From positions 1-21,000 of the IMG/VR virus record IMGVR_UViG_3300020001_000021: 21,000 bases of DNA; one strand, 5' to 3'. The notes below the pieces were generated by a model that was not told the origin of the DNA, ran no database searches, and saw only the letters and a program-made list of their open reading frames with translations. Origin of the DNA: a virus. Shown here one piece after another: positions 2,434 to 14,334 of this stretch (positions are counted from its first letter, which is position 1; the number at the start of each line of letters is the position of its first letter). The position numbers were made by a program, and so were the translations under genes.

Positions 2434-5400
2434 ATGGCTGGCTTTCTCGATGCGCTGAAGGCGTCCATCAGTAACCTGTTCAACGTCGGCGGAGAGGGTC
2501 AGAAGGCGTCCAACAAGGCCGCCTATGACATGGCGACTGCGCCATTCGATTCACACAAGGACATTGGCGACGCCTGGAATTCGTTCTTCAGCGCGGCGAA
2601 GTATGCGCCCCGGATGATCGGGGCGGAGCTGGGCGTCGCCGGTACTGCCATCGGGGGGGCGATCAACTCCAACCCGGTCACCCGTGGCGCGGCCTCCGGC
2701 CTTGAGACCGCGTACCGCGAGGGCATCTCCCGTCCTATCACGACTCTGTCTCTGAACGCCAACGAGGCGTCTCGTGGCGAGGATGACTCGTGGAAGAAGC
2801 TGTTCGATGGGGATGCGTGGGCTAAGGCGTATGACGCCTCGAAGGGCATCTCCATGGGGCAGGCCCTCATCGGCGGAGCCGCCCTCGGGGAGGATGGCAT
2901 AGGCGGCCAGGCCGCCTCCATTGACCAGATCAAGCAGGCGATCAACACCGGGAAGTACGACGAGGGCGCGCTCCAGTGGACGAGCGGCACGCTGGACGCC
3001 GCCGGTCGCATGTTCCTCGACCCGAGCATCATCGGCGGCAAGGCCGTGGGCCTTGCCCGCCTCCGTTATGTCAAGCCGCTTGCGGGCGCTCAGGTGGCTG
3101 AGGGTGCGGCCACCACGTACACCCTGTCCAAGCGGTTCGATCGCGTGGCGCAGGTGGTCCAGAAGGCGAAGTCCGCGGACGAAGTCCGCGTCCGGCTGCT
3201 GAACGACAACAGCAATGGCGCCGCTATGGCGTCCGTGCTGTTCAACGTGCGCCACGACCCGGAGCTTCTGCGCATCGCTACTCGCGCGGGCTACGGCGAG
3301 GGTGGTGCGTTCGATGACCTTAACGCGTACAACCAGACCCTGATTGCCGCGAAGCAGGACGCGTCGACAGGCATGCAGGCCGCCGCGGACATTGGGCGTT
3401 TGCGGCGTGGGGATTCCGCGATCGTGCGCCGTCAGCGCGCCAACATGGCGGACGAGCAGCCCGGCGACTGGGAAGACTACGTTAACCTGATGAAGACGGA
3501 TGCCAACGTCTTCGACCAGGCCGTGACCACCTCCCCCGAACTAATGCAGGCCGTGAAGGACGCACCGCTTCTGTCCTCCGGCAAGGTCGCGCTTCCGCAG
3601 ATGCGCGACTCGCTGTCCTCCCGCATGCGTTTCACTTTGCACCAGAGCGCCTTCAGTGACGCTCAGCCTTCCCTCGTGAAGGCCCCCATAGAGTCGATCA
3701 TGCGTACATGGATGATCCCATCCAATCGCCGCCTCCACGGAATCAACCTCATTGATGACAATTCCGATAAGGCGGTACGCACGTATCTCGATCGCGCCGG
3801 AATGCCCCAAGCGCAGAAAGCCTCTCTTCTCGATAGATACATGGCTGCCACGGGGAACAACGGTCAGCGGTCTGTGGTCATGGCGCAGATCGAAGACGCG
3901 GCTATCCGCCACATCGGCGGAGTGTACGGCTACTCACCGGCAGAGGTGGAGTCCATCACTCAGGCCGCGGCGTCGGGCGCTGGCCGCGCCCGCGAGATCA
4001 TGGCGAACAAGCACGAGTTCATGGCTCAGGATCTTCAGTCCGACCTTGCCGAACAGGGCAAGGTCATGCTTCACATTGATGAGGACGGGACCCGTCACGT
4101 CATTCCCGTGCCCGCGCTTGAGTCTCAGCTTCAGGACCTGTACCCGGTAGCCGACCCGGCTGCCGTGCATTCCGCGATGAAGAACTCTCAGTCCCTTGTT
4201 CGCAGCACCGCATCAACTGTCGCTGGCGATGTCTCGATGTTCATGGACAAGATCCACCGCATCTGGAAGCCGACCGTGCTTATCGGTCTGGGCTGGCCCG
4301 TGAGGGCGGGCTCGGATGAGGTGGCGCGCTCCGTCGCGCTGTTCGGTCTCGGCTCGCAGATAATGGGCATCGGCAAGGGCTTCCGCTATTCCGCGGAGAA
4401 CATCGCGGAGCGCGGGGCCACCCGCTGGGACGCGTACGTGAAGGGCCAGAACCGGGACCGCATTCAGGTGCTGAACCGGGTCATGGATCCGGAGATGAAC
4501 AACCACGCGCGCTTCCTCGACCTGGCGCACGCCTACTCCAAGGGCATGATCTCCACGAAGGAACTCGTGGAGACGACGACCGATGCCGTCAAGAAGGGCC
4601 TCGGGGATCCGATCCACGCGGGCCTGTGGCGCGGCGTCGAAGACGGCGTGATGTCGAAGAAGGAATTCGGGGGCGAGGTTGTTTCCCGCGCGCTGGCGAA
4701 GAATGAGAAGAACTGGTTCAAGAATCCGTATAGCCAGCGCGGGATTATCAATCAGGCGTACGATGAGGGCAAGTCGTCTGTCGACCCAATGACCGGCGGC
4801 GAGTACAAGCCAGGCGCGGATGTGAAGGTCATTCGGTCGAAGACCATTCAGCCGGACGAGACCACTGGCCGCATTCACAACAATGACTTCGTTCGGGCGA
4901 ACCTCGATCACCTGATCCCAGACGATTCGGGCATAACGCTGACCCACGTGGGTGACGGCGCTATCCGCATCGACGCGCACGCGCAGCAGCTCGGGTTCGC
5001 TGACCGCAGGCTGATCGCGAAGCGCGAGCTGAAGGACTTCCCGAACAAGGCGGCCCGGTCAGCTAACCGGCCGGTGATGGTGAAGCTGGGCAACGGCCAG
5101 AAGATCGTGATGGAAGGCGCCATGGAGGGCGCCGGTCACGGGCTAATGAAGCAGGCTTCCGGCGATGACGTGTACGCCAACTACCTCGCGGACTCGCACG
5201 AACTGATGCGCGACCGCATCGGCGCTTCGGCTGGCTGGTCTAATGGCATCACGGCGACGGACACAGTTCAGTACCCGAAGGCGTGGGAGCGGGCAGTTAA
5301 CATCCAGCTCGGGAACGACCGCGCGGCCCGCGGATTCCTTGAGGGCTCCAACTTCGACACGATGAAGCACTGGGCCGAGACGGATCCGGATGGGCAGGAC

Positions 5401-9649: not shown

Positions 9650-10492
9650 ATGGCAACCACTACAGCTCCGCCCCCACTGAACCCCACGCAGCAGAACGCC
9701 TACACGTACCTGATGGACCTGTTCAACTCCTACGATCTGGGGACGCTCGCGCCCCGCATTCTGGACATGATCCAGAAGGGCTACGACACCGACTCCATTT
9801 CGCTCGGGTTGCAGGACTCCCCCGAGTACAAGGCGCGATTCAAGGCGAATGACGCCCGCCGCAAGGCGGGCCTTCCGGTCCTGTCGCCAGCGGACTATCT
9901 GGCGACGGAGCGCTCTTACCGTTCGATCATGTCATCGGCCGGGCTACCGCCCGGTTTCTATGACCAGCACGACGATTTCACGAAGTGGCTTGAGACGGAT
10001 GTCAGCCCGAAGGAAGTTCAGGATCGGGTGAACCTGGCGACCGACAAGGCCAATTCGATGGACGACGCGACGAAGGACACGCTCTGGCGCTATCACGGGA
10101 TAGCGCCCGCGGATCTCGCCTCGTTCTTCCTCGATCAGAACAAGGCGCTGCCCCTGTTGCAGAAGATCAGCAAGCAGGTCGACGTGGGCGCAGCCGCGGA
10201 ACGCCAGGGCCTGAACGTGGACGCTGGCCGGGCGGACGTGCTGGCCAACAGCCAGCAGGCCGCGAACGCGGACCAGCTCTTCGGGAACGTCGCCGCGGAC
10301 ACCCGCGAGGGCGGGCGCATCGCGCAGATTTACGGCGACGTGTACACGCAGCAGATGGCCGAGAATGAGCAGTTCTTCGGTGATGAGGCCGCGAAGCAGA
10401 AGAAGGCCACCCTCTCTTCGCAGGAGAGGGCGACCTTCGGCGGTAAGTCTGGCATAGGCCAGTCCTCGCTCACGCAGGCGCGGAACATCTAA
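9650..10492 (+). CDS. Putative internal virion protein, last of the internal block
   Basis: 280 residues starting at ATG 9650 behind a weak CGGAATAG site. The N-terminus has a Pro/Thr leader, then helical segments; one is rich in acidic and aromatic residues (PPGFYDQHDDFTKWLETD). The end is Gln/Lys-rich, with SSQERATFGGKSGIGQSSLT near the C-terminus. It resembles the preceding gene in composition and helix spacing, so the two may be distant relatives. It ends 42 bases before a strong hairpin, which closes the transcription block. Function inferred from position only. Confidence 0.58.
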   Translation: MATTTAPPPLNPTQQNAYTYLMDLFNSYDLGTLAPRILDMIQKGYDTDSISLGLQDSPEYKARFKANDARRKAGLPVLSPADYLATERSYRSIMSSAGLPPGFYDQHDDFTKWLETDVSPKEVQDRVNLATDKANSMDDATKDTLWRYHGIAPADLASFFLDQNKALPLLQKISKQVDVGAAAERQGLNVDAGRADVLANSQQAANADQLFGNVAADTREGGRIAQIYGDVYTQQMAENEQFFGDEAAKQKKATLSSQERATFGGKSGIGQSSLTQARNI

Positions 10493-10534
10493 AGGCTCCG
10501 GTCGCCCCTCAGCGATGCCGCCGGGGCAATGAAT

Positions 10535-10567
10535 GAGCCCCACCCCCGCTCGTCAGGGGTGGGGCTC
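10535..10567 (+). terminator. Strong 12-bp GC hairpin closing the internal-protein block
   Basis: GAGCCCCACCCC at 10535-10546 pairs perfectly with GGGGTGGGGCTC at 10556-10567 around a 9-base loop. It lies just after the last internal-protein gene. No U-tract follows, which is usual for terminators in high-GC actinobacteria. Confidence 0.75.
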
Positions 10568-10730
10568 CGCAGGGCGACTCGGGGAGGCTGGAACTCCCCG
10601 GCGCCGACCGCGTAGTGGAAGCCTACCGCATGTGGTAGCGTCCCCCGCGCGGAACGGGGAGAGGTCAACTCCGGCAGTTTCGCCGCGAGCCGGTTAGGGA
10701 CCGTGTCCACGGGACCCCCGGTTCGCGCCA
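10568..10730. other. Non-coding stretch, first half
   Basis: I see no convincing gene on either strand here. The stretch contains short inverted repeats: CTACC/GGTAG around 10622-10638, and GCGAGCCGG at 10685-10693 against CCGGTTCGC at 10718-10726 with one G-T pair. The longer antisense frames over this area contain no recognisable protein and cross the terminator and the tRNA-like element. Confidence 0.5.
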
Positions 10731-10804
10731 TGCCTCCTGGTTGTAAGTAGCAACGCCCGCCCTGATACGGCGGGAGGTCCGGGTGTCAAATCCCGGGGAG
10801 GTTC
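10731..10804 (+). tRNA. Degenerate tRNA-Ile(GAT)-like cloverleaf
   Basis: A 74-base cloverleaf can be drawn. The acceptor is TGCCTCC / GGAGGTT (five Watson-Crick pairs, one G-T, one T-T). The D stem is GTTG/CAAC with a 7-base loop. The anticodon stem is CCCGCC/GGCGGG with loop CTGATAC, giving anticodon GAT at 10764-10766. The T stem is CCGGG/CCCGG with loop TGTCAAAT. Departures from a normal tRNA are a 6-bp anticodon stem, a D loop lacking the GG pair, an 8-base T loop, a T-T first pair and no encoded CCA. It may be a decayed tRNA, a tRNA mimic, or a chance fold. Confidence 0.38.
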
Positions 10805-10805
10805 T

Positions 10806-10869
10806 GAGAAGGTGGTACACCCGAGCGCGGTTCAGCTTCCCCCGCGCTCGGGTGCCGGAAGCCCTTCTC
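10806..10869. ncRNA. Nested stem-loop, candidate structured RNA
   Basis: An outer 7-bp stem (GAGAAGG at 10806-10812 with CCTTCTC at 10863-10869) encloses a perfect 13-bp hairpin (CACCCGAGCGCGG at 10818-10830 with its complement at 10842-10854, 11-base loop). It begins two bases after the tRNA-like element. Both stems are perfect, which is unlikely from composition alone. There is no U-tract and no known RNA family that I recognise. Confidence 0.45.
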
Positions 10870-10942
10870 GTGCCCGTGGGCAGTAGCCCCGGGAAGTGGC
10901 ATTGCAGCGGCTCCGGACGGTGCATCAATGCAGTGTCGCGCC

Positions 10943-10974
10943 GCCCGGCGCGGGCGTGGGGCCTTGCGCCGGGC
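10943..10974 (+). terminator. 9-bp GC hairpin upstream of DUF397 gene
   Basis: GCCCGGCGC at 10943-10951 pairs perfectly with GCGCCGGGC at 10966-10974 around a 14-base loop. It lies 12 bases before the Shine-Dalgarno of the DUF397 gene. It could terminate transcription of the structured region, or sit in the 5' leader of the DUF397 mRNA and control it. Confidence 0.4.
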
Positions 10975-10995
10975 CTCTAACTTGCAGGGGGAACA

Positions 10996-11172
10996 ATGGC
11001 GGAGCGGTGGCTGAAGGCTTGCGCGCGTAACGCGTGCGTTGAGGTGTCCGAGTCCGGGATCAGGGACAGCAAGGATCTCGCCGTTCTCCCGCTCCCCCAC
11101 GAGCAGGTGGCGATCTTCATCGCCGCCGCGAAGAACGGCGAGTTCGATGAGCTTCGGACTGGGGAAGTGTAG
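10996..11172 (+). CDS. DUF397-family small protein
   Basis: A 58-residue gene with a good ribosome binding site (CAGGGGGAAC) ahead of ATG. The product has the DUF397 pattern known from Streptomyces and related actinobacteria: a short N-terminus with W5, then CVEV at residues 14-17, a Gly-(I/V)-x-DSK core (GIRDSKDLAVLPL), and a C-terminal helix ending in KNGEFDEL. Family members are about 60 residues long and are often encoded beside XRE-type regulators in developmental or antibiotic regulation; biochemical function is unclear. Here it lies 11 bases from the end of a convergent minus-strand gene and about 3 kb from an XRE-type gene on the minus strand. Its presence in a phage structural region suggests an accessory (moron) gene acquired from the host. 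Confidence 0.8.
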   Translation: MAERWLKACARNACVEVSESGIRDSKDLAVLPLPHEQVAIFIAAAKNGEFDELRTGEV

Positions 11173-11173
11173 A

Positions 11174-11191
11174 GGGCCTGCCCCTAACCGC
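11174..11191 (+). repeat. 18-bp direct repeat, copy 1
   Basis: GGGCCTGCCCCTAACCGC lies between the DUF397 stop and the end of the convergent minus-strand gene. An exact second copy is at 13604-13621, downstream of the capsid terminator. The two flank the minus-strand cassette, the tRNA and the scaffold-capsid pair. Confidence 0.8.
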
Positions 11192-11510
11192 AGGGACAGC
11201 AGGTGTGGACGGCCTGGTGCATCTGCCCAGTGTCTTTCCAGTAGTCGAACTGATCAGGGTCGGGATGCCCGACCCCGTGCTCTGGGTATAGACGCTAGAA
11301 GAACCCCCGGTCGTCACGCCAGTGCAGCTCCCATTCGCTCATGGCGTGCTCGGTCGGGTTGTGGATTACGCACGGCAGATCCTCACACTTCTCCGCTCGG
11401 TGGATGTTCGTGAGGACCGCGACGCCTGCAGCGGCGCCGAAAAACGGCTCGGAGTGAGAGCCGATGATCGCCCTCGTGGGATCGTCGGGGTCAAGCACGA
11501 CCCGGTTCAC
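11184..11510 (-). pseudogene. Cys/His-containing phage protein (GHPDPD type) interrupted by an in-frame TAG
   Basis: The minus frame begins at GTG 11510, overlapping the upstream mini-gene stop as GTGA, and runs 71 codons to a TAG at 11295-11297. Codons continue in the same frame for 36 more residues to a second TAG at 11184. The first part holds SHSEPFFGAAAGVAVLTNI, CEDLPCVIHNPTEHAM and WRDDRGFF. The part after the TAG holds HGVGHPDPDQFDYWKDTGQ and ends TCCPCG. I recall actinophage hypothetical proteins in which a Cys/His segment, a WRDD-like segment and an HG(I/V)GHPDPD segment lie in one chain, often with ER before the last. The TAG falls about where that Glu would be, so a GAG-to-TAG change fits. 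No start codon precedes the second half. It is either a nonsense-broken gene, a readthrough product, or a shortened 71-residue protein. Function unknown; metal binding is plausible. Confidence 0.65.
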
Positions 11511-11593
11511 TCGGGCACCTTGTGCTGGCAGTCGCACCACGTGCCGCCCTTGCACTGTTCGTGCTGGGCGTCTTTGCATTTCTCGCAGATCAT
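11507..11593 (-). CDS. 28-aa Cys-rich mini-protein (zinc-ribbon-like)
   Basis: This tiny gene starts at an ATG that shares ATGA with the stop codon of the LuxR-type gene, and its TGA overlaps the next GTG as GTGA. The product reads MICEKCKDAQHEQCKGGTWC, then DCQHKVPE: a CxxC pair, H, C, then CxCxH. Five cysteines and two histidines in 28 residues suggest a small zinc-binding unit. Similar CDCQH-ending mini-proteins are, as far as I recall, common unannotated ORFs in actinophage genomes. The double overlap with its neighbours is strong evidence that it is translated. Role unknown; it may bind the regulator or nucleic acid. Confidence 0.68.
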   Translation of the reverse strand: MICEKCKDAQHEQCKGGTWCDCQHKVPE

Positions 11594-11796
11594 TCAATGA
11601 CTCCATTCCTGATGGCGTGCGCTACGGCGTGCGCCTTTCCGTGTAGGTCATTGCTTTGGCAGTACCGATAGAGATCGTTCTTCACTGTGCGCTCGGAGAC
11701 GTACATGACGCTGGCGATCTCCCTGATTGACATTCCGTTCGAGACGAGCTGAAGCACTCGCACTTGGCGGAACGCAACCTCCCCACCGTTGCTCAT
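11590..11796 (-). CDS. LuxR/GerE-type helix-turn-helix regulator
   Basis: A 68-residue protein that is almost only a LuxR-type DNA-binding domain. The usual pattern is visible: VRVLQLVSNGMSIREIASVM then YVSERTVKNDLYRYC, i.e. helix 1, turn, SxREIA, and the recognition helix SERTVKNDL, followed by a C-terminal helix with AVAHAIRNGVIE. It has no receiver or ligand domain, so it resembles stand-alone GerE-like regulators. I chose ATG 11796 because the longer frame to 11886 runs antisense through the tRNA. There is no Shine-Dalgarno, but a promoter at 11803-11831 would start the transcript at or near the ATG. It heads a three-gene minus-strand cassette and opposes the late operon. Target unknown. 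Confidence 0.82.
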   Translation of the reverse strand: MSNGGEVAFRQVRVLQLVSNGMSIREIASVMYVSERTVKNDLYRYCQSNDLHGKAHAVAHAIRNGVIE

Positions 11797-11802
11797 CGCG
11801 CG

Positions 11803-11831
11803 ATGGTAACACCCATAACCCACCCGGTCAC
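11803..11831 (-). promoter_or_regulatory. Sigma70-like promoter for a leaderless LuxR-type transcript
   Basis: On the minus strand, GTGACC (11831-11826) and TACCAT (11808-11803) are separated by 17 bases. TACCAT fits the actinobacterial TANNNT -10 pattern. The start codon lies 6 bases after the -10 box, so transcription would begin at the ATG, explaining the missing ribosome binding site. The -35 overlaps the plus-strand terminator hairpin. Confidence 0.5.
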
Positions 11832-11849
11832 TCGCTGGCCGGGTCTTTT
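11822..11849 (+). terminator. Rho-independent terminator just before tRNA-Met
   Basis: ACCCGGTCA (11822-11830) pairs with TGGCCGGGT (11836-11844), nine pairs including one G-T, around a 5-base loop, followed by TCTTTT. It is the only hairpin in the window with a clear T-tract. It points rightward, so it would stop plus-strand transcripts crossing the cassette. It ends one base before the tRNA, so the tRNA needs readthrough, its own promoter, or processing of a longer RNA. Confidence 0.65.
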
Positions 11850-11923
11850 GACGGGGTAGTGCAGCTCGGTAGCACACCAGGCTCATAACCTGGAAGTCGC
11901 GGGTTCAAATCCCGCCCCCGCCT
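11850..11923 (+). tRNA. tRNA-Met (CAT)
   Basis: A full cloverleaf of 74 bases. The acceptor is GACGGGG/CCCCGCC with one A-C mismatch at position 2-71. The D stem is GTGC/GCAC with GG in the loop, the anticodon stem CCAGG/CCTGG with loop CTCATAA, the variable region AAGTC, and the T stem GCGGG/CCCGC with loop TTCAAAT. The anticodon CAT is at 11884-11886. The anticodon stem lacks the three G-C pairs of initiator tRNA and pair 1-72 is G-C, so it is more likely elongator Met, or Ile if the C is lysidine-modified. CCA is not encoded. Confidence 0.9.
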
Positions 11924-11980
11924 CTCCTGAAGCCGACCGACCGGCCCGGCTCAGCGTAACTAGCCCGGTAGCAGAAGCCT

Positions 11981-12005
11981 CAGACCCGCTCCCCCGGCGG
12001 GTCTG
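11981..12005 (+). terminator. 9-bp hairpin between tRNA and scaffold gene
   Basis: CAGACCCGC (11981-11989) and GCGGGTCTG (11997-12005) pair perfectly around a 7-base loop. It lies 58 bases after the tRNA and 32 bases before the scaffold ATG, with no T-tract. It could end the tRNA transcript or form part of the scaffold-capsid mRNA leader. The rest of 11924-12037 shows nothing beyond the scaffold ribosome binding site. Confidence 0.45.
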
Positions 12006-12037
12006 TGCGGTCTGTGCCCACCTTTTAGGGAGAACGC

Positions 12038-12580
12038 ATGTCTCAGCAGGATTGGTTCGATGACGACCAGGACGACGCCGACGACGAGCCCAGCGCTCCG
12101 GCTCAGCCGAATCCTCGTGATCTGAGGAACCAGCTCAAGCAGGCCCTGAAGGCCAACAAGGAAATGAGCGCGAAGCTCGCTTCTGCCGAAAGCCTGGTGC
12201 GAAAGACGAACATCGGTAACTACTTCCGCGAGAAGGGTATCAACCCGAAACTCGCCAAGTATGTTCCTGCCGACCTCGATCCCAGCGACGACGCTCTAGC
12301 GAAATGGATCGAAGAGGACGGAGAGCTGTTCAATATCAAGCCGGTTGACGGTGGCGAGAATAAGCCATCAGATTCCAATACTGGTACTCCGGGTACCCCG
12401 GGACTGACAGGTGACAATATCACCCCTGAAGTCCAGCAGGGCTGGAACCAGATCAACAACACGACCGCCAACGCTTTGCCTCCCGGCAAGGCGGAAGAGC
12501 TGATGTCGAAGATTACCTCTGCGACTAGCCAAGAGGAACTTAAGCAGCTTCTCTTCTCGCACGGCGCGTCATCGTTCTAA
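12038..12580 (+). CDS. Putative scaffolding protein
   Basis: 180 residues with AGGGAGAA upstream of ATG. The N-terminus is very acidic (MSQQDWFDDDQDDADDE). A charged helix likely to form a coiled coil follows at about 28-57 (RDLRNQLKQALKANKEMSAK), then a compact central part with NYFREKGINPKLAKYVPADL, a Gly/Thr/Pro linker, and a helical C-terminus (EELMSKITSATSQEELKQLL). An acidic coiled-coil protein directly before the major capsid gene is the usual scaffold arrangement: it guides procapsid assembly and leaves before DNA fills the head. A capsid protease is not seen. The call rests on composition and position. Confidence 0.75.
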   Translation: MSQQDWFDDDQDDADDEPSAPAQPNPRDLRNQLKQALKANKEMSAKLASAESLVRKTNIGNYFREKGINPKLAKYVPADLDPSDDALAKWIEEDGELFNIKPVDGGENKPSDSNTGTPGTPGLTGDNITPEVQQGWNQINNTTANALPPGKAEELMSKITSATSQEELKQLLFSHGASSF

Positions 12581-13890: not shown

Positions 13891-14072
13891 GCGGCAAGAA
13901 GAAGCCTCCCACTAAGCGCGCACCCATGGCAAAGCCCATGCCGCCCATTGTGGGCGGCCAGCCCGCCGGGCCTAGCTCCCCGCCCGCCCTTCCACTAAAG
14001 GGGATGAAGGGGAAGCCAACTCCGGCGGTAATGAAGAAGGCTCCGGCGAAGAAGTCGGGTCGCGGGAAATAG
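13887..14072 (+). CDS. Small Lys/Pro-rich basic protein
   Basis: 61 residues starting in the ATGA overlap with the preceding gene, which argues for coupled translation. The sequence is rich in Lys, Pro, Gly and Ala (MSGKKKPPTKRAPMAKPM; ends KKAPAKKSGRGK) and has no hydrophobic core, so it is probably unstructured and nucleic-acid-binding. Its last 101 bases overlap the 3' end of the antisense XRE-type gene. Function unknown. Confidence 0.6.
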   Translation: MSGKKKPPTKRAPMAKPMPPIVGGQPAGPSSPPALPLKGMKGKPTPAVMKKAPAKKSGRGK

Positions 14073-14334
14073 GCACGACCCGGATCTCCATCCGGTAGCC
14101 CAGTGCGAGAAGGAACTTCGCCGCACTGCGGAAGCTCATGCTCTTCCCGTGCCGCACTCCGGTGCGGACGGCTGCCACGTACGAGGTGTGCACGCCAAGT
14201 ATCTCGGCCATCTCGGTAGTGGAGATGCCCTGTTCTTCGAGGATCCGGGCTATCAGGCGGCCGAGTTCCGCGTTGACCCGCTGCACCTCCTCTTCGGCCT
14301 CGACAGCCGCCGCATCCCATTTAGGAGTCCCCAT
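13972..14334 (-). CDS. XRE-type helix-turn-helix regulator, antisense to the structural operon
   Basis: A 120-residue minus-strand protein. After an acidic helical N-terminus (about 7-35), residues 37-65 form a helix-turn-helix of Cro/C1 (XRE) type: GISTTEMAEILGVHTSYVAA with a basic turn RTGVRHGKS. Then comes FRSAAKFLLALGYRMEIRVV, the end usual in HigA-like antitoxins and small actinobacterial XRE proteins. Residues after about 92 are Ser/Pro-rich and lie opposite the Lys-rich plus gene, so the real domain may end earlier. The ATG shares the palindrome CCATGG with the ATG of the plus gene at 14333. No Shine-Dalgarno is seen; a GTG at codon 17 behind GAAGAGGAG is an alternative start. No toxin gene is adjacent. 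It could be a repressor, an antitoxin relic, or a moron controlling the late operon. Confidence 0.72.
   Translation of the reverse strand: MGTPKWDAAAVEAEEEVQRVNAELGRLIARILEEQGISTTEMAEILGVHTSYVAAVRTGVRHGKSMSFRSAAKFLLALGYRMEIRVVPISRDPTSSPEPSSLPPELASPSSPLVEGRAGS

Follow-up and report, generated by a model that had tools for sequence, protein, structure and literature searches.

In the Beephvirinae, a group of Streptomyces phages, cultured members keep an array of tRNA genes between two genes of the late operon, and 14, 21, 19 and 22 tRNA genes were found at this site in Abafar, Stella, Manuel and Immanuel3, respectively. Abafar has been described as a virulent phage without lysogeny genes (PMC11536984). 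Morons of temperate phages are extra genes that lie within a conserved operon with a promoter and a terminator and that are absent in close relatives. In Streptomyces, DUF397 proteins are usually preceded by an XRE partner, as in the Scr1/Scr2 pairs (PMC6262351, PMC10364602). Among LuxR-type regulators, GerE-like proteins (PDB 1fse, 7x1k) consist of a single HTH domain. Finally, actinophages encode hypothetical proteins with a GHPDPD motif (Gordonia phage Neville gp67, Sixama gp186, Daredevil gp8).

The DNA analysed here (hereafter the window) is a 21-kb fragment related to the Beephvirinae. It shares with their tRNA array the site and the flanking genes and keeps a tRNA-Met and a weak tRNA-Ile, but it carries protein genes on both strands instead of most of the tRNAs (Table 1). 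As in morons of temperate phages, the otherwise conserved late operon contains additional genes that are absent in sister contigs, here accompanied by a candidate promoter and a terminator-like hairpin; the difference is that the nearest characterised relative of the window is virulent, which makes expression from a lysogen implausible. The DUF397 gene belongs to the same protein family as the Streptomyces pairs, but no XRE gene adjoins it, and the neighbouring regulator on the minus strand is of the GerE type. The whole of this 68-aa regulator is the HTH domain, as in the GerE-like proteins, and it matches GerE and a CheY-annotated chain by sequence, whereas it differs from them in being phage-borne and without known partner or target. 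Identity of the third minus-strand gene to the actinophage GHPDPD proteins is at most 59% over the shared region, and the window copy departs from them by an amber codon at an invariant Glu, by C75Y and C108G, and by a gene order and orientation that are not shared.

We consider it likely that the window comes from a Beephvirinae-like phage with foreign genes at its tRNA site, namely a DUF397 gene and a probably autoregulated pair of HTH protein and mini-protein that trails a decayed GHPDPD gene. This explanation is preferred because of the enlarged gap when compared to 70 sister contigs, the GerE domain, the relatives of the mini-protein, the TAG together with C75Y and C108G, the lack of a second trio, the codon usage and the virulent relative.

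Table 1. Positions of the features described at the insertion site, counted along the window
Feature	Positions	Strand	Basis or remark
Accessory region flanked by two conserved genes of the virion operon	10493-12037		1,545 bp
tRNA-Ile(GAT)-like gene	10731-10804	+	ARAGORN alone; below Rfam tRNA reporting; weak
DUF397 protein gene (58 aa), within the insertion	10996-11172	+	Exceeds the cut-off of Pfam PF04149 (E=8e-6)
Untranslated 3' part of the third gene, RLYPEHGVGHPDPD...HTCCPCG	11184-11294	-	Continues the frame after the TAG; has no start codon of its own
In-frame TAG	11295-11297	-	Position is Glu in 68/68 aligned relatives
Truncated third ORF (71 aa), GTG start	11295-11510	-	N-terminal part of a GHPDPD-family protein
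Mini-protein (28 aa), MICEKCKDAQHEQCKGGTWCDCQHKVPE	11507-11593	-	Member of the recurrent viral C..C...H..C.GGTWCDCQH family
LuxR/GerE-type HTH protein (68 aa), single domain, without sensor domain	11590-11796	-	Pfam GerE
Candidate leaderless promoter, GTGACC (11831-11826), 17-nt spacer, TACCAT (11808-11803)	11803-11831	-	Found by eye
Terminator-like hairpin and CTTTT	11822-11849	+	-15.2 kcal/mol, fold z = -3.4
tRNA-Met(CAT)	11850-11924	+	Rfam, 65 bits

The insertion at the tRNA-array site

The site is flanked by a conserved late gene (9650-10492) and a putative scaffold gene (12038-12580). These genes stand 1,545 bp apart in the window vs 44-255 bp in the 70 sister contigs, which had been chosen by similarity of their major capsid protein and in which homologues of both flanking genes were found together. 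Moreover, the content of the insertion is missing at that site from all 70. Since the gap is so much larger than in the sisters and the site holds tRNA arrays in the four named phages, the region is an accessory, moron-like insertion, and our best reading is that it comprises the minus-strand gene group as well as the DUF397 gene. We therefore conclude that protein genes got into the tRNA-array site of the window phage, and thus that this site in these Streptomyces phages also takes protein genes. Under the mechanism proposed here, the incoming DNA would have consisted of the plus-strand DUF397 gene and a minus-strand mini-operon, probably of foreign origin, lodged between the late gene and the scaffold gene where cultured relatives keep their array. 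The tRNA-Met is 80.6% identical to the tRNA-Met found at the same site in L093, and the tRNA-Ile(GAT)-like gene is possibly the decayed remnant of a tRNA gene from an earlier array. The data fit both a replacement of tRNA genes and an entry into an array that was already short.

As regards lifestyle, the sequence-only reading had likened the gene group to a moron expressed independently of lytic growth, possibly from a prophage. The moron part of this claim holds, as an accessory insertion on the opposite strand that is absent from the 70 sisters, and the position on the minus strand amid virion genes is likewise confirmed by the annotation of the sisters. The prophage part is not supported: the nearest named relatives are the Beephvirinae and Abafar is virulent without lysogeny genes, so expression from a prophage is unlikely and the window phage is probably virulent too, as judged from this relative.

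Between the tRNA-Met and the scaffold gene, the non-coding stretch 11900-11971 is common to sister contigs L026, L052 and L053 (72% identity over 72 bases). An element of the form GACCGGCCC...GCGTAA was recognised by eye in this region and is present in L018 and L093 too.

The HTH and mini-protein genes

The first minus-strand gene encodes a genuine LuxR-type HTH protein, as had been claimed, since its GerE domain (PF00196) scored 30.9 bits against a curated Pfam cut-off of 23.5 (E=2e-7); the sequence search also returned the GerE chain 1fse from the PDB (E=2e-5). No relative of this protein appeared in viral contigs by peptide-pattern search, and phage records gave weak and scattered matches only. 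Small phage-borne HTH proteins usually repress or tune their own promoter. From this habit and from the position of the gene, the window protein would be expected to do the same.

An own promoter had also been proposed, and here the outcome is mixed. A plausible candidate exists (GTGACC-N17-TACCAT), with the TACCAT box lying 6 nt before the ATG of the HTH gene, but a stricter scan gave no 9-of-12 sigma70 match. Boxes of the TANNNT type occur 5-8 nt before 1.1% of all ATG/GTG codons of the window, and before 0.23% when the -35 box must also match at 4/6 positions or more; as this chance rate was computed after the candidate had been found, it is suggestive only. The HTH protein would most likely be made from this leaderless promoter directly upstream. 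On the plus strand, the terminator-like hairpin spans 11822-11844, overlaps the candidate promoter and stands just before the tRNA-Met, which bears out the terminator and tRNA that had been noted nearby. A terminator-like hairpin on the minus strand (11463-11445, inside the third ORF) is weaker and at chance level.

The second gene, described earlier as a 28-residue Cys-rich protein, is real because it has relatives in about 35 viral contigs. The window copy is a short frame that matches the family pattern (CxxC, a His and a Cys ahead of GTWCxCQH). As tblastn had yielded nothing, relatives were sought by a DNA pattern, which identified 29 stretches with the exact GTWCDCQH and six more when the Asp was relaxed; most of them translate into short frames in which CxxC, a His and a Cys precede the signature, and their neighbours vary. 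These tiny Cys-rich viral proteins (contigs L094-L122 and L231-L236, C..C...H..C.GGTWC[D]CQH) occur in many unrelated contexts. The pattern had no match in 396 actinobacterial genomes, tblastn found none for the mini-protein in phage records, and a longer relative gave chance matches only. In addition, no model matched in Pfam (window copy), in PHROGs, or in NCBIfam (two relatives), although proteins so short are hard for such searches. Note that GTWCDCQH mini-proteins are easily missed by gene callers. The mini-protein would be made by translational coupling after the HTH protein, and its Cys and His residues suggest that it most likely folds round one metal ion as a protein- or nucleic-acid-binding zinc knuckle.

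Codon usage was compared by log-odds scores. The HTH gene, the mini-protein ORF and the third ORF ahead of its TAG fall in the top 3.5-5% of spurious ORFs and below the 5th percentile of late genes, whose own scores are somewhat flattered because the training set of late genes included the comparison genes. Such intermediate values are as expected for real but foreign genes. The DUF397 gene scored high, and the 36 codons behind the TAG scored like spurious frames.

Elsewhere on the minus strand, an ORF downstream of the capsid genes (13972-14334) weakly resembles an XRE-type HTH (HTH_37/HTH_3), with scores short of the curated cut-offs, and no relative of it was found in the sister loci searched.

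Co-occurrence of the minus-strand genes

As the sequence-only reading had stated, the three minus-strand frames overlap as ATGA (HTH and mini-protein, 11590-11593) and as GTGA (mini-protein and third ORF, 11507-11510); SD-like sequences precede the mini-protein and the third ORF. From this tight coupling, that reading had gone on to suggest that the three products work together, and had named co-occurrence of the three genes elsewhere as part of the test. A functional regulatory cassette of this kind, in which the HTH protein, the mini-protein and a deliberately short third product of 71 aa act together, could draw on the two 4-nt overlaps with their SD-like sequences, on the nearly complete set of family-conserved positions kept in the upstream 71 codons, and on one viral contig (L168) in which a GerE-type HTH gene lies one gene upstream of a GHPDPD gene. 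Nevertheless, we regard it as unlikely, since neither the 115 GHPDPD loci nor the 29 mini-protein loci contained the trio, GerE stood upstream in just one of the 65 GHPDPD neighbours scanned, and the stub is devoid of the part where most invariant residues of the family lie.

Indeed, the mini-protein pattern occurred in none of the 115 GHPDPD loci (regex, about 3 kb on each side), and a LuxR-type HTH was detected by phmmer in one of them, i.e., L168. The single GerE found by Pfam among the 65 upstream neighbours should be read with the choice of these neighbours, which were picked by position and length, the L168 HTH having been put in on purpose. In L168 itself, the HTH gene (2399-2638) and the GHPDPD gene (2998-3279) are separated by an ORF (2619-2996), and no mini-protein was found. 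Conversely, none of the 29 mini-protein loci held an HTH or GHPDPD relative within the fetched stretches, and where a mini-protein record does encode a GHPDPD protein (3 of 28), that gene lies outside the fetched neighbourhood. The three-gene order thus has no second locus in the collections searched, an absence that applies within these finite collections and to a single-sequence HTH search that is weak for distant HTHs.

The overlaps themselves say little on shared function. In 16 of 34 mini-protein relatives, about half, the longest frame upstream likewise overlaps by 4 nt, and the upstream ORFs are unrelated; some of these frames may not be genuine genes, and the overlap is partly built in because ATGA is the start of any frame that begins with Met-Ile. 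Defence-system models gave no convincing match. The gene group looks like a one-off accessory insertion rather than a conserved system of three genes. Taken as such a system, it is of minor weight, since it is not conserved and one of its genes is broken; what is still of interest is the insertion site, together with two recurrent phage families that are unnamed in the searched libraries, the GHPDPD proteins and the GTWCDCQH mini-proteins.

The in-frame TAG of the third gene

The third gene had been taken as intact, its frame being read across a stop. From its start at the GTGA overlap (11510), the frame is cut by the TAG after 71 codons, ahead of the GHPDPD motif, and in the window no continuous frame runs through that motif. 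When 68 family members were aligned with the window, their Glu 72, Cys 75 and Cys 108 (68/68, 68/68 and 65/65) fell opposite the stop, Tyr and Gly of the window; these losses weigh against a three-gene system as well. A wider regex count of 97 distinct sequences gave Glu in 88, Asp in 6 and Gly in 3 at the position of the TAG. The N-terminal H37, C47, H50, H55, R65 and D67 are all kept. Strongly conserved positions depart from the family in 1 of 11 cases upstream of the TAG vs 4 of 16 downstream, a difference that is not statistically significant, and two near-invariant glycines are lost behind the TAG besides the two cysteines. On average, the part ahead of the TAG is 45% identical to the family and the part behind it 51%. 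When the TAG is read as Glu, the frame matches actinophage hypothetical proteins across the stop, with 56-58% identity in Gordonia phages. As the similarity to the family hardly differs between the two sides of the amber, this stop may be of recent date, or some readthrough may occur. From these substitutions, we read the third gene as a decaying relic with a fairly young stop; the ORF would descend from a putatively metal-binding GHPDPD-family phage protein, of which presumably only the 71-aa stub can be made.

Readthrough of the TAG into a full-length GHPDPD protein, by a leaky stop or by a suppressor tRNA encoded elsewhere in the genome, is the next alternative. The frame stays open for 36 codons past the TAG and reaches the usual C-terminal end of the family, at the 51% identity given above, the suppressor could lie outside the 21-kb fragment, and readthrough of in-frame stops has been argued to be common in bacteria (PMC7918605). 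We hold it to be quite improbable, since the region it would restore has lost both invariant cysteines as well as two near-invariant glycines, no suppressor tRNA lies within the window, and the TAG is an ordinary stop of this phage, ending 5 of its 15 annotated genes; the codon-usage score behind the TAG also resembles non-coding frames, on just 36 codons. An assembly or sequencing error, with the third gene intact, would need a change of one base (GAG to TAG) in a metagenome-derived assembled record. It seems more doubtful still, as one such error would leave the loss of C75 and that of C108, independent changes close to each other, without explanation. Very improbable, finally, is a two-component regulatory pair of the HTH protein and a metal-binding mini-protein transcribed against the late operon, with the third gene expressed at a low level by readthrough and the tRNA site serving as an antisense control point for late transcription.

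The GHPDPD family comprises 346 confirmed matches in viral contigs, and no match was found in plasmids. AlphaFold2 predicted its fold with a pLDDT of 88 and a pTM of 0.74 for an intact member (L004, 68 aligned sequences), and not for the broken copy of the window. Foldseek returned no solved structure for this model at E <=0.001, VIA-align 2 gave no Z of at least 2 among the chains re-examined, and the viral structure library returned the own family only. By sequence, a profile search retrieved nothing in the PDB, no PHROGs model was matched at E 0.01 by 11 aligned members, no Pfam model was convincing and no NCBIfam model matched at the thresholds used.

A further GHPDPD match that seemed to hold an internal TAG (L228) was set aside, as this TAG is its normal stop, and it makes no second case. 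Within the window, three genes end in a TAG that has the following start codon in frame and no more than one codon away (2433/2434, 7461/7465 and 17143/17147), so that readthrough would fuse the neighbouring products; these three arrangements may be due to chance.
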